From Cellvibrionales bacterium UBA4435 (GTDB taxonomy: Bacteria; Pseudomonadota; Gammaproteobacteria; Pseudomonadales; Porticoccaceae), in the NCBI GenBank assembly GCA_002390525.1, contig DGPR01000013.1, forward strand, positions 82,629 through 96,684: a stretch of 14,056 nt of DNA. The letters are read 5' to 3'. Shown one piece after another: positions 1 to 6,231 of the stretch (position 1 is its first letter; every line of letters begins with the position of its first letter). Made by a program: the position numbers and the translations under genes. Under the pieces are notes generated by a model. That model worked only from the letters and a program-made list of their open reading frames with translations, was not told the DNA's origin and did no database searches.

Positions 1-1127
1 ACTGGCACAAGTGCATAGAAGCTATCATGTTTATCTGGAGCGAAAGATTTATCTGTACAGGTAGGCCTGTGAAGATATATAGAAAAATCCTCTGATAAAT
101 GATGGTTGTCAAATATATCTTCAAGTAACTCTTTGTATCTAGGACCCATCCAAATCGTATGATGAGCAACATTTTCATAGCATTTTGTTGACCCAAAAAA
201 TAATACAAATAAGCCCATCGAGTGCTTCGCATATTTATTTATTAGTCGATTATGAAGAGATATTTTTTCATTCTTTAGCAATTCTTTGGATACTTGTATT
301 GGGTCAGCATTACTTACAATATAATCAAATTCCTTGCTTTCTTCATTTGTAAAGTTGACTCTTGTAATTAATTTTTTTGATGTAGAAAAATGACTCACAT
401 CACATGAATAATTTATCTCAATGCCGTTCCTTAACATTAATTTTTCAAGTTCAAGTACAAGTTTTCCTGTCCCGCCCATACAAAAGAAAATACCCCATTT
501 TTGTTCTAGCGCATGAATAAGTGAGTATATCGAGGATGTTGTAAAAGGATTGCCTCCAACTAGGAGTGGTTGAATTGAAAATGCTTGACGTAGATTTGGG
601 TGCTTTATATGTTTAGATACAAAGGTATAAACAGAACGGTAGCCTTTCATTTTGATAATATCTGGGGCATAACGGAGCATTGTTGTTAGTCTGTGAAATG
701 GATGTCCCGCTAACTTTTCGTATCCGAGCTTAAATATTTCTTTTGATTCTTTGAGCATGTCTAAGTAGCCTGAAACATCCTCAGGAGATAATTCTTCAAT
801 TTGGCTAAGCATTTTTTCTCGATCGGATCCATAATCAAACTCTGTTTGATCGTTGAAATGGAATCTATACCAAGTGTTTAAGGGTTTGAACTCAAGATGA
901 TCTTCTAAGCTTTCATCAAATAATTCAAATAGCTCATAAAATAGATTAGGCGCTGTTATTACAGTAGGCCCAGCATCATGGAGATAGCCATTTCTTTGGA
1001 AAACTTGTGCCCTGCCCCCTAATTTATCTAGACGTTCATATATGGTTACCTTATTCCCTCTTGCTCTCAATCTGATCGCGGCAGCAATGCCACCAAAACC
1101 TCCTCCGATAATAGCAACTCTTTTCAT
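1..1127 (-). CDS. crtI: Phytoene desaturase (CrtI family), C-terminus beyond window
   Basis: FAD-dependent desaturase that introduces double bonds into phytoene, here most likely towards lycopene, the precursor of beta-carotene and retinal. I translated the minus strand from the ATG at 1127-1125 and it stays open for 375 codons to the left edge, so the gene is partial only because the window ends; the family is usually about 490-510 residues. The N-terminus has the dinucleotide-binding fold with GGGFGG at residues 8-13, followed by the E-R-LDKLGGRA stretch typical of CrtI. A GGTGKLV segment and a late SFAPDKHDSFYALVP segment match conserved CrtI blocks. Its ATG overlaps the stop of crtE as ATGA, which indicates translational coupling in one operon. 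Which desaturation product it makes cannot be read from sequence alone. Confidence 0.93.
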   Translation of the reverse strand, partial: MKRVAIIGGGFGGIAAAIRLRARGNKVTIYERLDKLGGRAQVFQRNGYLHDAGPTVITAPNLFYELFELFDESLEDHLEFKPLNTWYRFHFNDQTEFDYGSDREKMLSQIEELSPEDVSGYLDMLKESKEIFKLGYEKLAGHPFHRLTTMLRYAPDIIKMKGYRSVYTFVSKHIKHPNLRQAFSIQPLLVGGNPFTTSSIYSLIHALEQKWGIFFCMGGTGKLVLELEKLMLRNGIEINYSCDVSHFSTSKKLITRVNFTNEESKEFDYIVSNADPIQVSKELLKNEKISLHNRLINKYAKHSMGLFVLFFGSTKCYENVAHHTIWMGPRYKELLEDIFDNHHLSEDFSIYLHRPTCTDKSFAPDKHDSFYALVP

Positions 1128-2062
1128 ATCAAGTTAAGCCTTTTAATTATTTCATCTTTTAGTGACTCGATGATTGGTTGAATAATTATAGGTAATCGAT
1201 GATTATTTAACATAGCATTTTTTAATATAGCGACTATCTCTTCTTGTGACTGAATAAAATTTCTTTCAGAAATAAAATCATTAAATTTGCTTGGCTGTTT
1301 AAATACGACTTTTTTCTCTAGAGCTGATAAATTCTCAAGTATTCGAATCACCATAAAATTTGGATGACCCTTTAGAAAATCTGACGATATTTCCTGCTCA
1401 AAGCCGATTATATTTTCTATATCGTTTAAATATTGATAAGCAAAACCAAGTTCGTTTGAGATCTCTTTTAGGGCAACACATTCATCTTCTGTGAGCTCCT
1501 TGCAGCGAAACATACCCATCATAGGTAACGCGATTAATGGAGCAGTTTTATCAATAGCTATCTTTCGACACTGATCTTTAGTTAGCGTTAAATGATCTAA
1601 ACTCACGTCTAGTGATTGGCCAAATATTATCTCTTTTACTGAGCATGATAGTAGTTTTAATAGGATATTTTGATGCCACCCTTGCTCTATTTCAGTAATT
1701 TTTCTAAATGACTCTGCAATTAAGTAATCTCCCGTACAAACAGCTGCAGGTATACCGAACTCTTTCCAGAGAGACTTTTTTCCTCGCCTCATTGAGTCTT
1801 TATCACATATATCGTCATGCAAAAGGGAGGCACTATGAATCAGTTCACACACAACTGCCCATTTGATATACGTTTGACTTGAAAGCCCTAGCAAGCCACC
1901 TGAAGCAAGTGCCAAACGGGCCCTTATCCACTTTCCTTTCGACTTATTGTGATGTTTTAGCCAATCAGATATGAATGATTCTTCTATATCAAAACTTCTT
2001 GCAAATTCCTCTTTTACAAGATGAAGACATTCATCTGCCTCTGGAGGCATATAATATTTCAT
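1124..2062 (-). CDS. crtE: Polyprenyl diphosphate synthase, likely GGPP synthase (CrtE type)
   Basis: All-helical isoprenyl diphosphate synthase expected to supply geranylgeranyl diphosphate for carotenoid and retinal synthesis, given that crtI follows with an ATGA overlap. The first aspartate-rich motif is intact (DDICD at residues 83-87 counted from the chosen start, followed by RRG), and a GKWIRARL stretch matches the isopentenyl diphosphate-binding region. The second motif, normally DDxxD, reads NDIEN (about 213-217), so two of three aspartates are replaced. The open frame extends upstream to a TTG at 2101, but that TTG lies in the loop and stem of a terminator hairpin, so it is unlikely to be the start. 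I chose the ATG at 2062, with GAGAGG a few bases upstream (312 residues); ATGs at 2074 and 2050 are alternatives. Fold is certain; product chain length is inferred. Confidence 0.85.
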   Translation of the reverse strand: MKYYMPPEADECLHLVKEEFARSFDIEESFISDWLKHHNKSKGKWIRARLALASGGLLGLSSQTYIKWAVVCELIHSASLLHDDICDKDSMRRGKKSLWKEFGIPAAVCTGDYLIAESFRKITEIEQGWHQNILLKLLSCSVKEIIFGQSLDVSLDHLTLTKDQCRKIAIDKTAPLIALPMMGMFRCKELTEDECVALKEISNELGFAYQYLNDIENIIGFEQEISSDFLKGHPNFMVIRILENLSALEKKVVFKQPSKFNDFISERNFIQSQEEIVAILKNAMLNNHRLPIIIQPIIESLKDEIIKRLNLI

Positions 2063-2086
2063 AGGCCCTCTCATATATCTCAGTAT

Positions 2087-2117
2087 AAAAAAACGCGCCA
2101 ATAAGGCGCGTTTTTTC
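2087..2117 (-). terminator. Rho-independent terminator after second rhodopsin, in front of crtE
   Basis: CGCGCC (2094-2099) and GGCGCG (2105-2110) pair perfectly around a 5-nt loop, flanked by six A and six T that extend the stem. On the minus strand the stem is followed by seven T, the standard intrinsic terminator form. It begins about 20 nt past the rhodopsin stop and ends about 25 nt before the likely crtE start, so it would cut or attenuate transcription into the carotenoid genes. The symmetry would also allow function on the plus strand. Confidence 0.9.
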
Positions 2118-2135
2118 TTGTATTTTTTCTACTAC

Positions 2136-2879
2136 TTAAGCGCCAGCATCAGATTTACGTTGAGCAATCATATAGATCATAACACCGAAACCTGCTTTAG
2201 CAACAATATCTGCAATTGTATAACCCACTTGAACAGCAGCATTAATTTTACCAAGCTCTAAGGCACCTATGCCAAGCATTGGTAGAATAAAGACTATTGG
2301 GTAGAAGCACCAAGAAAGTATAGTTAAAGTTCTTGCATTAGCTACCAATCCTCTAACACTAGTGGGTTGAGAGTTTATTGAGGCACCTAAACCTATAATC
2401 AATTCTTTTACAATGTAAAAAAATGGGATCATTGCAGCAGTCCACCACAACCAACGCTCCTCTCCAGTAGCGGCAACTTCGCCTGGGTAACCTAGAACAA
2501 CCATTAATGCTGAAGCGACTGCTAGCTTGATGCCTTTTGAATAAGTATCTTTCTTACTCAATCTCATCACAAGGACAAGTTCTAGTAAAAGCAGTGGCAC
2601 AGTTAGTAACCAGTCAACATAACGATATGCATCGTTGAATGCTGAGCCAGTAGCAATCACTGTTCCATCTTTAAGGGTATATGCATGCTCAAAGCTTTCA
2701 AACATTCTGACATAATGATAGAAGGCAATTAGGCATACTAAGCCTGATAGCGTAAGTGCTGTTTTATATGCTGGAGCAACTTGGCTACGCTGAGCAAACA
2801 TAAATACTGTAGCTGCTCCAAATGTTGCAATAGCAAAGGACAATGAATTAAAGACGAGATTGTAATCACTTAATTCCAT
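2136..2879 (-). CDS. Light-driven proton pump rhodopsin, green-type tuning (Leu)
   Basis: Seven-helix retinal protein of 247 residues in the inner membrane, predicted to export protons in light. The helix C block RYVDWLLTVPLLLLE gives Asp89 (Schiff-base counterion), Thr93 and Glu100 (proton donor), the DTE set of proteobacterial proton pumps. His55 in helix B matches the counterion-partner histidine. Lys228 in the IADIVAKAGFG segment is the retinal-binding lysine. The tuning position is Leu97, typical of green absorption. It is clearly diverged from the neighbouring proteorhodopsin and could belong to a xanthorhodopsin-like group, but the residue equivalent to the antenna-pocket glycine (bacteriorhodopsin Trp138) is Trp146. 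There is no obvious cleavable signal peptide. The ATG follows a good ribosome site (AAGGGGAG, 6 nt spacing). It has its own terminator downstream. Confidence 0.95.
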   Translation of the reverse strand: MELSDYNLVFNSLSFAIATFGAATVFMFAQRSQVAPAYKTALTLSGLVCLIAFYHYVRMFESFEHAYTLKDGTVIATGSAFNDAYRYVDWLLTVPLLLLELVLVMRLSKKDTYSKGIKLAVASALMVVLGYPGEVAATGEERWLWWTAAMIPFFYIVKELIIGLGASINSQPTSVRGLVANARTLTILSWCFYPIVFILPMLGIGALELGKINAAVQVGYTIADIVAKAGFGVMIYMIAQRKSDAGA

Positions 2880-2953
2880 TCTTTTCTCCCCTTAAAAAAC
2901 TATAATTTTTTACAGCACCCTCTTAAATACACATTACGAAAAATTGAGAAGAT

Positions 2954-2959
2954 ATTATA
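2954..2959 (-). promoter_or_regulatory. Candidate -10 element for second rhodopsin
   Basis: A perfect TATAAT on the minus strand overlaps the T-tract of the preceding terminator, about 75 nt upstream of the rhodopsin start. The best -35 at suitable spacing (TTTAGT, 18 bp) matches only half of the consensus, so this is weak. A separate promoter is expected here because a terminator closes the upstream gene. Confidence 0.25.
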
Positions 2960-3004
2960 AAAAATTGGCGTTACAGGACTAAATATATCGCCCTATAACG
3001 CCAA
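2959..3004 (-). terminator. Rho-independent terminator after proteorhodopsin
   Basis: TTGGCGTTA (2965-2973) pairs with TAACGCCAA (2996-3004), and after one mismatch AGG pairs with CCT, leaving a loop of about 14 nt. On the minus strand the stem is followed by six T. It lies about 30 nt past the proteorhodopsin stop codon, so this gene is probably made as its own transcript. Confidence 0.85.
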
Positions 3005-3035
3005 ACTTGCTACTTGATATTCGAACTACAGGTTA

Positions 3036-3731
3036 TTAAGCCTTAGACGAAGATGTAGCTGCTACCCAAATAACAACACCGAATGCAATCTTGTTAACGA
3101 AGTCTGCAAGGTTGTATACAAGGTTGAGGTTAGATGCAGCATCACCACCTGCACCAGCACCTACGATATAACCTATGGGATAGATTGACCACCCAACAGT
3201 TACAATTAAACGCAGTGCATTGAAGGCAGTTTTACTTGCTTCAGTACCTTGGGCTGCGCTGATTTGACTAGCTTCACCAACGAAGATTTCGTAGATGATG
3301 TATATCCAACCAGCCATACCAATTGCGAATGCTGGCCAATAGGACATAGCTCCAACTTCACCGAGATATCCGCCAACTAGCATCACAACGGATGCAATTA
3401 ACAGCTTCCAGAATAAAGCAGCACGAACTACAGCTATAGCAGAAAGAATCAAGAAAAACTCGACAATCTGCAGTGGTACAGTTAACAACCAATCGACATA
3501 GCGGAAGACTGTCGGGCTTGCACCTGTTGATACCCAAACCCCTCGCATGTAGAAATAGTGAATCGCTGCAATACCAGTTACCATCGCCGCAACGGTTAAA
3601 GATGTTTTCCACTTGCCTTCTGCGCGATCGCGTTCAACAGTGAAAAAGTAAGTTGCCGCAACCATTGCTGCGGATATAATCCAGAAACTGACTCCTGTAT
3701 AATCACTAGGATTTAAACCTGTCGTTTCCAT
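3036..3731 (-). CDS. Proteorhodopsin, light-driven proton pump, blue-type tuning (Gln)
   Basis: Canonical proteorhodopsin of 231 residues, seven membrane helices, inner membrane. The RYVDWLLTVPLQIVE block gives Asp80 (counterion), Thr84, Gln88 (tuning) and Glu91 (proton donor); Lys214 in NLADFVNKIAFG binds retinal and His58 pairs with the counterion. These numbers are exactly 17 lower than the well-known SAR86 green proteorhodopsin (97, 101, 105, 108, 231, 75), whose leader peptide is about that length, so this protein seems to lack a cleaved leader. Gln at position 105 equivalent is the established blue-absorbing state. The antenna-pocket position is Phe135, so no carotenoid fenestration is expected. 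The start is supported by AGGAG six bases before ATG. It is followed by a terminator and lies first in the rhodopsin block. Confidence 0.97.
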   Translation of the reverse strand: METTGLNPSDYTGVSFWIISAAMVAATYFFTVERDRAEGKWKTSLTVAAMVTGIAAIHYFYMRGVWVSTGASPTVFRYVDWLLTVPLQIVEFFLILSAIAVVRAALFWKLLIASVVMLVGGYLGEVGAMSYWPAFAIGMAGWIYIIYEIFVGEASQISAAQGTEASKTAFNALRLIVTVGWSIYPIGYIVGAGAGGDAASNLNLVYNLADFVNKIAFGVVIWVAATSSSKA

Positions 3732-3767
3732 GTTTCTCTCCTTTTACTTTTATTAAGTTTTATTTTC

Positions 3768-3795
3768 ACATTAATGTAAATATTAAAGCTTGCAA
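3768..3795 (-). promoter_or_regulatory. Candidate proteorhodopsin promoter
   Basis: On the minus strand TTGCAA (3795-3790) and TAATGT (3773-3768) are separated by 16 bp, each matching four of six consensus bases. This gives a leader of roughly 30 nt ending in a good ribosome site. The -10 overlaps ACATTAATGT, a 10-bp perfect palindrome (3768-3777) that extends to 16 bp with one mismatched pair, so a repressor could bind here. Weak matches; inference only. Confidence 0.3.
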
Positions 3796-4024
3796 GTCTT
3801 AACGCCTGCTTCAAATTACTACTTAAATGAGCCTTTCTTTGCAAGACAAATTGTTTGCCTAAAGGAAGCACCTGTCTAATTTGAACAATGAAGACCTTTT
3901 AGTCAATAGATTTTTGCTAAAAAACTAATATAAAATTACATATAATTGATATTTAATGAAATTAAATACCTGTTTATTATTGAATCTTCAGGGCTGCAGG
4001 CCAGACACACCAGTTAATTTTAAT

Positions 4025-4043
4025 AAAAGATAGTAATCATTAT
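4025..4043 (+). promoter_or_regulatory. Fur-box-like sequence
   Basis: By hand alignment 14 of 19 bases match the classical Fur consensus, including the unbroken ten bases TAATCATTATC-type right half. It sits about 120 bp upstream of pyrE and about 300 bp upstream of proteorhodopsin, so the regulated gene is not clear. AT-rich sequence raises the chance of a random match. Confidence 0.25.
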
Positions 4044-4080
4044 CATCTAAAATAAAGAATTTACTTAAATTATGAACTTC

Positions 4081-4098
4081 ATCTATGTATACATAGAT
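4081..4098. promoter_or_regulatory. Perfect 18-bp palindrome upstream of pyrE, possible operator
   Basis: ATCTATGTATACATAGAT reads identically on both strands, with no mismatch and no spacer. It ends 63 bp before the pyrE ATG. A dimeric repressor site is the simplest reading; no T-tract follows, so a terminator is unlikely. Confidence 0.4.
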
Positions 4099-4161
4099 AA
4101 AACTAGCCTATTCTGGCAATATTAAGTATGTAAATTTTTTAATTCTTGTTCTGGAGTAGTG

Positions 4162-4842
4162 ATGTCATTTAATAGCTTCCCTGATAAAAAACTTATAGCA
4201 TCCTTGAGCGCTAAAATGTTAATAGAGATTGGGGCAATCAATTTTAGGCCAAGTGATCCTTATATTCTGACATCTGGAAAAGCAAGTCCAGTCTATATCG
4301 ACTGTAGAAAGATAATATCCTACCCTAGAGTTAGGTCGGCTCTTATGGATTTTGGAGCTTCCGTGGTGCTGAGAGATATTGGCTTTGAGTCTATAGATGC
4401 TATAGCTGGTGGAGAAACAGCTGGTATACCCTTTGCTGCTTGGCTTTCAGAAAGGCTTTCTCTGCCAATGCAGTATGTAAGAAAGAAACCAAAAGGATTT
4501 GGTAAGGATGCGCAAATAGAAGGTCATATCACAGAAGGGTCCAAGGTTCTCTTAGTCGAGGATTTAACTACAGATGGAGGTAGTAAAATTAAGTTTTGTA
4601 ATGCTCTTCGAGAGGCCGGTGCAGAAGTTACCGATACCTTTGTCCTCTTTTTTTACGATATTTTTCCTGACACAAAAAAAATACTTGCTAAAAATGATAT
4701 AAGGTTACATTTCCTTACGACATGGAAAGATGTTTTATCTGTATGCAGAGATACTAGTTATATAGACGAGTCATCAATTCTGACGATTGAAGAGTACTTA
4801 AACGATCCGAATGGATGGTCTGAAATGAATGGAGGCAAATAA
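4162..4842 (+). CDS. pyrE: Orotate phosphoribosyltransferase
   Basis: Cytoplasmic enzyme of de novo pyrimidine synthesis that joins orotate to PRPP, giving orotidine 5'-phosphate. The PRPP-binding signature [14 protein letters not shown] is at residues 129-142, and the [11 protein letters not shown] stretch (105-115) provides the mobile-loop lysines. [13 protein letters not shown] (37-49) matches the N-terminal orotate-side block. At 226 residues it is slightly longer than the E. coli enzyme (213) and ends with a YLNDPNGWS tail like that seen in alphaproteobacterial-type PyrE. A GTG at 4159 is in frame, but GGAG at 4153-4156 is well spaced only for the ATG at 4162, which I chose. The gene stands alone, divergent from the rhodopsins, with bioA 93 nt downstream. 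Confidence 0.95.
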
Positions 4843-4871
4843 ATACCTTAGAGTGCCTTAAGAAATTTTTA

Positions 4872-4901
4872 TTGATATTATTAATTTTATTTACTTATCT
4901 T
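4872..4901 (+). promoter_or_regulatory. Candidate bioA promoter
   Basis: TTGATA (4872-4877, five of six consensus bases) and TATCTT (4896-4901, four of six) are 18 bp apart. The start of transcription would fall near 4908, leaving a leader of about 28 nt. No palindrome resembling the BirA operator was found around it. Confidence 0.4.
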
Positions 4902-4935
4902 TTTCTACAAACATTCGTCCAAACTAGTGCTAACT

Positions 4936-6231
4936 ATGACAAAGCCTTTAACACCAGAGCAGGTTGCTATTATTGATAAGAATCATATATGGCATCCCTA
5001 CTCTTCTTTAACAAAACCTATACCAGCATACCAGGTCGTGAGTGCCTCTGGAGTCCGATTAAAATTATCTGATGGCACAGAATTGATAGACGGCATGTCT
5101 TCATGGTGGTCAGCTATCCATGGTTATAACCATCCTGCGTTAAATAAAGCTTTGATAGATCAGATAGGCAAGGTTTCTCATGTCATGTTTGGAGGTATTA
5201 CGCATGAGCCTGCCGCTACTCTTTGTAAGACTTTAGTTGACATTACTCCTGATGGTCTAGATAAGGTGTTTCTGTCAGATTCTGGATCAGTGAGTGTAGA
5301 GGTGGCTCTTAAGATGGCCCTACAATTTTGGTCATCTCAAGAGCGTTTTGAGAAGTCTCGGTTTCTCAGCTTTAAAAAGGGGTATCACGGCGATACATTA
5401 GGAGCTATGTCTGTCTGTGATCCAGTAAATGGAATGCATTCCCTTTTTAACCATACTCTTGATAAGCAAATTTTTGCAGAAGCACCTATTTGTGGTTTCC
5501 ATGATGCCTGGGAAGATAGATATATATATGACGTTAAATCGAAATTAGAAGCAAACTCCCAAAATATAGCAGCTGTAATTATTGAGCCAGTAATGCAGGG
5601 TGCCGGAGGGTTAAATTTTTATTCTCCATTTTATATGCAGGAAATTCGAAAACTGTGTGACAGTTATGATGTTTTGTTGATTGCAGATGAAATTGCTACA
5701 GGCTTCGGTCGCACAGGCAAGTTATTTGCATGCGAGTGGTCAGATACAAGTCCCGATATCTTATGCCTTGGCAAGGCATTAACAGGAGGCTACATGACTC
5801 TAGCAGCAACACTTTGTACGAGCAAGATAAGTAACACTATATGCTCAGGAGGTTCAGGTGTTTTTATGCATGGACCCACCTATATGGGAAATCCTCTAGC
5901 TTGCTCTGTTGCCAATGCTAGTATCGACTTACTTTTAGATACTGATTGGCAGACAACCATTAAAAGAATCAACACCCAGTTAAAAGATCAGCTTTCAGGT
6001 CTAGACGAGCATCGTAGTGTAAAAGATGTCAGATGTTTGGGGGCGATTGGCGTTGTTGAGATGTTTGAAAAAATTGATGTTGGTAAAATACAAAAAGAGT
6101 TCGTTTCCGAGGGTATATGGATAAGGCCTTTTGATAAAAGAATATATTTAATGCCTCCTTATAATATCTCGTCTGAGGATCTAAAAAAATTAACCAATGG
6201 AATTATAAAAGTCATCAATAGACTTTACTAA
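4936..6231 (+). CDS. bioA: Adenosylmethionine-8-amino-7-oxononanoate aminotransferase
   Basis: PLP-dependent class III aminotransferase that makes 7,8-diaminopelargonate from KAPA in biotin synthesis, using S-adenosylmethionine as amino donor. The opening WHPYSS (19-24), DGMSSWWSAIHGYNHP (52-67) and SHVMFGGITHEPA are near-identical to well-known BioA blocks and separate it from other class III aminotransferases. PLP contacts are visible: GS at 117-118, Tyr150, Asp251 in the ADEIATGFGRTG motif, and Lys280 in LCLGKALTGGYM as the Schiff-base lysine. Length 431 is normal. A GTG at 4927 is in frame; the ATG at 4936 is preferred, though neither has a clear ribosome site. No other biotin genes are nearby. 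It ends 35 nt from the convergent trpS. Confidence 0.96.
   Translation: MTKPLTPEQVAIIDKNHIWHPYSSLTKPIPAYQVVSASGVRLKLSDGTELIDGMSSWWSAIHGYNHPALNKALIDQIGKVSHVMFGGITHEPAATLCKTLVDITPDGLDKVFLSDSGSVSVEVALKMALQFWSSQERFEKSRFLSFKKGYHGDTLGAMSVCDPVNGMHSLFNHTLDKQIFAEAPICGFHDAWEDRYIYDVKSKLEANSQNIAAVIIEPVMQGAGGLNFYSPFYMQEIRKLCDSYDVLLIADEIATGFGRTGKLFACEWSDTSPDILCLGKALTGGYMTLAATLCTSKISNTICSGGSGVFMHGPTYMGNPLACSVANASIDLLLDTDWQTTIKRINTQLKDQLSGLDEHRSVKDVRCLGAIGVVEMFEKIDVGKIQKEFVSEGIWIRPFDKRIYLMPPYNISSEDLKKLTNGIIKVINRLY

Follow-up and report, generated by a model that had tools for sequence, protein, structure and literature searches.

Background

The closest described relatives of the locus reported here are genomes in which a proteorhodopsin occurs together with a second rhodopsin. 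In freshwater 'Ca. Methylopumilus', a proteorhodopsin, a xanthorhodopsin-like (xantho-like) rhodopsin, and the retinal genes lie in a row, with both rhodopsins of the green type, and marine OM43 bacteria carry the xantho-like rhodopsin only, raising the question of whether they lost proteorhodopsin or never had one (PMC6794327). Rh-noK was described in tandem with proteorhodopsin in marine betaproteobacteria (PMC10308929, citing Yamauchi 2019), and Dokdonia sp. PRO95 harbors a proteorhodopsin and a xanthorhodopsin-like gene (PMC3587595). For Marine Group II (MGII) archaea, the descriptions consulted assign the blue and the green type to separate genomes and variants, not to a tandem (PMC6336850, PMC6741140). 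Here, we analyzed a stretch of 14,056 nucleotides (the window) from the gammaproteobacterium Cellvibrionales bacterium UBA4435 (GCA_002390525.1, contig DGPR01000013.1, positions 82,629 to 96,684), in which 2 adjacent genes, RhoA for a blue-type proteorhodopsin and RhoB for a green-type xantho-like rhodopsin, stand at the head of a retinal synthesis cassette.

The initial annotation had singled out the adjacent blue and green arrangement as worth checking. Adjacency is not new in itself, as tandem layouts have been published (PMC6794327, PMC10308929). No description of an intact blue and green tandem in Gamma- or Alphaproteobacteria was found among the best 2 to 20 open-licence papers listed per search, and the intact blue and green version, along with its spread across classes, is new as far as we have seen.

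Results

Two rhodopsins of different families

The 2 minus-strand rhodopsin open reading frames (ORFs) first annotated in the window were confirmed at their exact coordinates (Table 1) and were the only 2 matches to the Pfam Bac_rhodopsin model in the 87.8% complete host genome, with 157 bits for RhoA and 128 bits for RhoB (cut-off 24.6). The residues listed in Table 1 align in both proteins with Asp97, Thr101, position 105, Glu108, and the Schiff-base Lys of proteorhodopsin. The Asp/Thr/Glu pump set and retinal lysine that had been read from both sequences were thus borne out, as was the contrast at position 105, with Gln88 in RhoA and Leu97 in RhoB. The retinal Lys228 of RhoB is present, unlike in Rh-noK.

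The best solved matches of RhoA were 7b03, 2l6x, and 8cnk (E ~8e-83), with 58% identity to 2l6x, a green proteorhodopsin, across 223 aligned positions, and proteins P0124-P0139 were 87-92% identical to it. Placement among the proteorhodopsins held for RhoA and failed for RhoB, which is xanthorhodopsin-like, its nearest solved relatives by sequence and fold being psXR, xanthorhodopsin, Gloeobacter rhodopsin, and Kin4B8. Over an alignment of 226 positions, RhoA and RhoB share 70 residues (31% identity), which excludes a recent duplication of the pair, in agreement with the wide divergence noted at the outset.

Residue counts covered 93 RhoB-type and 41 RhoA-type rows, with rows shorter than 200 aa dropped (e.g., the broken G180 copy) and rows with identical first 150 residues merged. 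RhoB has a lysine in helix E (Lys158, window 2406-2408), a site with an aromatic or aliphatic residue in 85 of the 93 RhoB-type rows; Lys or Arg occurs there in 8, all from intact tandem or OM43-type loci (L003, L018-L023).

Color type and carotenoid antenna

Blue proteorhodopsins absorb near 490 nm. At position 105, Gln marks blue and Leu marks green proteorhodopsins (PMC10807816, with the same usage in PMC3587595). Leu was identified in all 93 RhoB-type rows, and the 41 RhoA-type rows had Leu (24), Gln (16), or Ile (1). The green type of RhoB is therefore a family trait, and the pair differs in color because RhoA is of the blue type. Judged from these residues, the blue versus green difference comes with the 2 families and not with the tuning of 1 pair; of the different color tuning initially proposed, the blue and green residue types stand, and a special tuning does not, with Leu invariant in RhoB-type rows.

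The fenestration Gly of xanthorhodopsin (position 156), which leaves space for a carotenoid antenna, is replaced by Trp146 in RhoB and Phe in RhoA. Among the 93 RhoB-type rows, 72 have Trp and 21 have Gly; the 41 RhoA-type rows all have Phe. An antenna is thus not expected on either protein, and a bound carotenoid was rejected on this ground; weaker evidence came from the carotenoid hydroxylase model PF04116, which had no match in the 87.8% complete host genome in a search limited to this model. For Methylopumilus, a Gly-to-Trp change led to the same conclusion (PMC6794327).

Retinal cassette

The cassette has the order RhoA-RhoB-crtE-crtI-crtB-crtY-blh, and the 4 crt genes together with blh suffice to make retinal from isoprenoid precursors. 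The crtE, crtB, and crtY genes scored above Pfam cut-offs and below NCBIfam cut-offs, with the NCBIfam prenyl-synthase models matching crtE, all below cut-off, and blh scored above in both libraries. The crtI orthologue of locus L022 was above the cut-off of TIGR02734 (crtI_fam). The crtY profile test was run on the copy of the sister genome G001 because the copy in the window's genome (G000) has a masked stretch.

Distribution across genomes

The host is a small, marine-type, streamlined Porticoccus-like gammaproteobacterium. Rhodopsins were identified in 2 of the 17 genus genomes, G000 and G001, both with the tandem, and 15 genomes were without. At E 1e-80, RhoB was found in the same 2 of 112 family genomes, and a RhoA relative at E 1e-60 in 45 of 390 genomes of the order. 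Among the 30 order-level RhoA loci listed, only those of G000 and G001 had a xantho-like gene within flanks of ~1.5 kb. A draw of 369 genomes of the class returned close RhoA relatives at E 1e-110 only from the window's own genome. In the protein homologue searches that yielded P0002 and P0124-P0139, scoring was limited to the candidates with the most shared words, and 1 locus search kept the best 80 of 362 loci. Within the genus, small genome size and phototrophy coincide: the carriers are assemblies of 1.2-1.3 Mb, and the rhodopsin-free genomes (G002-G016) of 1.7-2.7 Mb.

Outside Gammaproteobacteria, we identified the same intact pair and gene order in 2 metagenome-assembled genomes (MAGs), one of Kordiimonadaceae (L020, whose contig ends within blh) and one of Emcibacteraceae (L022). 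In the NCBI taxonomy, both families belong to Alphaproteobacteria; Porticoccus is a member of Gammaproteobacteria and Methylophilaceae of Betaproteobacteria. The flanks of the 2 MAG loci differ (glmS in L020 versus a fused aminotransferase gene in L022), and for the genes flanking each, close relatives occur in other genomes of its order (73% identity for L020 and 91% for L022); the glmS of L020 is 46% identical to that of OM43 strain HTCC2181. Mis-binning of these loci is therefore unlikely. In both HTCC2181 (L018 3220-5079) and the Kordiimonadaceae MAG (L020 201-1571), the gene immediately upstream of the cassette is glmS, a shared position that reflects either chance or a favored insertion site.

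The related loci fall into 4 kinds, with most genomes of the first 2 drawn from the family of HTCC2181. The first, labelled Methylopumilus-like by its match to the published description (PMC6794327), combines a green proteorhodopsin with an intact green xantho-like gene (8 xantho-like rows). The second, taken as Rh-noK, pairs a blue proteorhodopsin with a xantho-like gene lacking the retinal lysine and the counterion (8 rows; L071, L118-L120, L122, L123, L127, and L133), with the lysine replaced by Ile in 7 and Leu in 1 and the counterion Asp by Gly in 7 and Ser in 1; a further genome of this kind (G190) has both genes on separate contigs. The third is the kind of the window, with a blue proteorhodopsin and an intact green xantho-like gene in 4 genomes. 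The fourth comprises OM43 strains such as HTCC2181 and KB13, with an intact xantho-like gene and no second rhodopsin match in the genome. In the Methylopumilus-like L136 (G180), the xantho-like gene is split into 2 overlapping frames, through decay or assembly error. Further, 1 genome of the HTCC2181 family (G081; C15, C121; L139) had 3 rhodopsin matches, one of them divergent with an in-frame TGA.

Evolutionary history of the cassette

In the RhoB tree of 45 rows (28 from the 4 locus kinds, 16 hand-picked others, and 1 reference), the 4 intact tandem copies formed 1 clade (100/99), and their junction with the OM43 copies was not settled. The crt genes were analyzed in trees of 34 and 22 rows. 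In the concatenated crt and blh tree, the 4 intact tandem loci likewise formed 1 clade (100/100), placed among 15 rows of Methylophilaceae and kin, which include L023 (Burkholderiales), L027 (Proteobacteria), and L029 (Nitrosomonadales). Grouping those 15 rows to the exclusion of the 4 loci was rejected (approximately unbiased [AU] test, p 0.000258, an optimistic value for the reason given in the Discussion). The nesting of the crt genes among Methylophilaceae implies transfer between classes.

The RhoA tree comprised 62 rows (21 hand-picked from 120 listed protein matches, 40 locus rows, and 1 reference), with the odd row L139_A_2547 omitted. The tandem RhoA genes are distant from the Methylopumilus-like proteorhodopsins, and their stand-alone relatives in other families of the order (L193-L195, 82-87% identity) have different crt genes of their own. 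Deep forks in the RhoA and RhoB trees are unsure because of long end branches. The histories of RhoA and of RhoB with crt differ, so the cassette looks composite, with the xantho-like and crt genes apparently from Methylophilaceae and the proteorhodopsin from a wider blue lineage.

Selection

By Nei-Gojobori counting, the ratio of nonsynonymous to synonymous change (dN/dS) between the window and G001 was 0.072 for RhoA and 0.091 for RhoB, and between L020 and L022 it was 0.026 and 0.062, respectively; as synonymous change in crtE and crtI between the window and G001 is saturated, these values are rough. Both rhodopsin genes appear, from these ratios, to be maintained by strong purifying selection. 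The lysine-less xantho-like genes of L071 and L118 gave a dN/dS of 0.104, and a maintained role without bound retinal therefore seems likely in those loci.

Terminator-like hairpins and flanking genes

The suggestion that each rhodopsin gene has its own terminator agrees with a terminator-like hairpin found after each (Table 1), the one after RhoB being palindromic with its T run mostly within the stem. A simple terminator scan of positions 1-5000 returned 3 sites against a shuffle mean of 3.1, i.e., no excess, and missed the hairpin after RhoA because its loop is too long. Support for the hairpins comes from recurrence in the 4 intact tandem loci, not from the scan: the RhoA hairpin was present in the window, G001, L020, and L022, with 14 consensus pairs kept. 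None of the 14 pairs was altered on both sides across the 4 loci, which is conservation and not covariation.

A similar hairpin of the ACGCGCC/GGCGCGT type follows the xantho-like gene in the OM43-type loci L018, L019, L025, and L029, and another separates the 2 rhodopsins in tandems without the retinal lysine (L071, L118, L119, L120, and L133). With a similar hairpin at differing locus types, its shape alone is uninformative on descent. We make no claim that RhoA arrived with its own terminator; a like hairpin was found downstream in 1 of 8 stand-alone loci (L150 of L148-L155).

The rhodopsin pair is flanked by pyrE and the polyprenyl synthase gene, with no flotillin gene next door, and the order in the window's genome is gor, a peroxiredoxin gene (L015 8795-9460, between gor and the cassette), cassette, and pyrE. 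Of the 15 rhodopsin-free congeners, 4 have gor no more than ~1 kb upstream of pyrE; the other 11 had no gor within the stored flank.

Table 1. Coordinates of the rhodopsin pair, hairpins, retinal genes, and neighboring genes (window positions unless prefixed with locus L015)
Feature	Position	Strand	Details
RhoA, proteorhodopsin, blue type	3036..3731	minus	complete ORF, 231 aa; D80/T84/Q88/E91/K214
RhoB, xanthorhodopsin-like, green type	2136..2879	minus	complete ORF, 247 aa; D89/T93/L97/E100/K228
Hairpin after RhoA, between RhoA and RhoB	~2965..3004	minus	15 pairs, 10-base loop, then six T
Palindromic hairpin after RhoB	2088..2116	minus	12 pairs by scan (plus strand only), 13 by fold
crtE-like polyprenyl diphosphate synthase	1124..2062	minus	start at ATG 2062; PF00348 134.6 bits vs 27 (scanned as 1124-2101)
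crtI-like phytoene desaturase	3..1127	minus	extends beyond the window as L015:12335-13756, with masked stretch
crtB	L015:11455-12342		outside the window
crtY	L015:10262-11458		outside the window
blh	L015:9472-10284		outside the window
pyrE, divergent neighbor	4159..4842	plus	right cassette border; NF001729 370 bits vs cut-off 245
bioA, flanking core gene	4927..6231	plus	outside the cassette; NF005940 664 bits vs cut-off 625

Discussion

Gene identities, residues, gene order, sharing across classes, crt nesting, and purifying selection were computed for this locus. We consider it probable that the window holds a horizontally acquired phototrophy cassette encoding 2 independent light-driven proton pumps and the retinal for both, with light harvesting in 2 bands as the likeliest role that the sequences suggest for the pair. 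Absorption maxima, pumping, co-expression, benefit, and assembly order are what we infer. RhoA (blue type) and RhoB (green type, no antenna) would each bind retinal and export protons, and CrtE, CrtI, CrtB, CrtY, and Blh would supply 1 shared retinal pool to both. The pair would widen the underwater light band usable by a streamlined heterotroph, and separate terminators could allow separate RhoA and RhoB levels. The part comprising RhoB, crt, and blh would descend from Methylophilaceae, and RhoA, from a lineage of blue proteorhodopsins whose members also occur singly in other bacteria, was probably placed before RhoB. The cassette would thus represent an intact blue and green pump pair, with one retinal supply, kept by selection in bacteria of 2 classes. 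Tandem cassettes with Methylophilaceae-nested crt genes also fit the loss or exchange of a proteorhodopsin before the xantho-like gene, a point that bears on the OM43 question.

Several points weigh against this reading. The color, pumping, and expression ascribed to the pair rest on sequence, and position 105 is calibrated on proteorhodopsins, with further residues also affecting color. The sister of the 4-locus crt clade is not settled (82/96). The crt tree groups the window with the alphaproteobacteria, and window plus G001 was disfavored (AU p 0.017); this and the earlier AU value are optimistic because the 2 groups tested were chosen once an initial tree had been inspected. The history within the genus is therefore not simple, and the closer placement of the window to the alphaproteobacteria than to G001 suggests more than 1 transfer or recombination. 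The tandem RhoA genes are not 1 clade (4 changes) and are interleaved with other proteorhodopsins (8 aligned ones at 86-91% identity, all with Gln), so the pair need not travel as 1 unit every time. Further, no carrier element was found on plasmids, where 2 of 72,556 records matched (both Polymorphobacter, 55% identity), or in viral contigs, where 6 stretches matched the pattern and 0 were confirmed.

Among the rival explanations, the one with the most support is that RhoB joins RhoA in mixed oligomers and serves mainly as its partner or regulator there, with the color of RhoB secondary. Loci of Porticoccus-like bacteria, Kordiimonadaceae, Emcibacteraceae, and the Methylophilaceae family all retain a xantho-like gene immediately behind a proteorhodopsin gene, the partner in 8 Methylophilaceae-family rows lacks lysine and counterion yet evolves under the constraint reported above for L071 and L118, and a mixed-oligomer role has been speculated for the lysine-less Rh-noK beside proteorhodopsin (PMC10308929). 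However, in none of the 4 intact tandem loci does RhoB lack a pump residue or the lysine. An intact protein of this kind is also the sole rhodopsin match of HTCC2181 and KB13, so a RhoB-type protein can stand alone. On balance, we regard it as improbable that RhoB is mainly a partner or regulator.

The 2 pumps could also be redundant, adding dosage or having met by chance beside the retinal genes, with a color difference of no consequence. Leu as the family state of RhoB-type proteins, Gln in only part of the RhoA-type rows (16 of 41), and the green type of both Methylopumilus copies would fit such an account, but wherever a RhoA-lineage proteorhodopsin forms part of an intact tandem (4 of 4), blue is combined with green, and strong purifying selection acts on both genes, which leaves redundancy quite improbable. 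An assembly or binning artefact is very improbable: although the 4 intact tandem genomes are all drafts (G000 in 52 contigs, G001 in ~40, and L020 and L022 MAGs), the 96.7 kb contig, at whose end the window is located, has flanks (pyrE, bioA, and gor) that agree with congeners, the tandem recurs in G001 and in 2 alphaproteobacterial genomes whose flanking genes are those of their own order, and P0002, from other sources, is 96% identical to RhoB.

A broader and more speculative scenario, which we think doubtful, would make the cassette a mobile 2-color island, in which a blue proteorhodopsin was taken up by a xantho-like and retinal operon of Methylophilaceae that then spread to at least 3 families in 2 other classes. 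The proteins would form mixed oligomers; the green member would work as a pump in the present cassette, whereas in a sister lineage it would be a regulatory subunit free of retinal (Rh-noK). On this view, the intact state ancestral to the Rh-noK system would be preserved in the window.

Comparison with known systems

Flotillin-associated rhodopsins resemble RhoB in being a second type-1 rhodopsin in a streamlined genome; they are described as proteorhodopsin-family proteins that adjoin a flotillin gene, with doubtful retinal binding (PMC10308929), whereas RhoB is a xantho-like protein with the full set of pump residues and adjoins the retinal genes. Dokdonia sp. PRO95 similarly combines 2 rhodopsin types in 1 marine genome, the second with Leu at position 105, and lacks crtO, but its 2 rhodopsin genes have separate genomic surroundings (PMC3587595).

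Methylopumilus shares with the window a second rhodopsin between proteorhodopsin and retinal genes, Trp at position 156, and pump residues in both proteins (PMC6794327). Both rhodopsins are green there, whereas the pair of the window is blue and green and was found in Gamma- and Alphaproteobacteria, and the presumed Methylopumilus-kind loci (L130-L138, L143, and L144) have a proteorhodopsin from a lineage other than RhoA. The OM43 strains HTCC2181 and KB13 encode proteins 81% and 76% identical to RhoB, respectively. They share the order crtE-I-B-Y-blh, and a comparable hairpin follows their rhodopsin gene; they differ in having a single rhodopsin match per genome.

The Rh-noK loci likewise have a blue-type proteorhodopsin and then a xantho-like gene, followed by crtE-I-B-Y-blh in L071 and L189-L192, and both rhodopsins and the crt genes are related in sequence to the cassette of the window. 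The second rhodopsin there is without the retinal lysine and counterion, whereas RhoB is intact, which makes RhoB an intact natural relative for comparison with the lysine-less Rh-noK beside proteorhodopsin.
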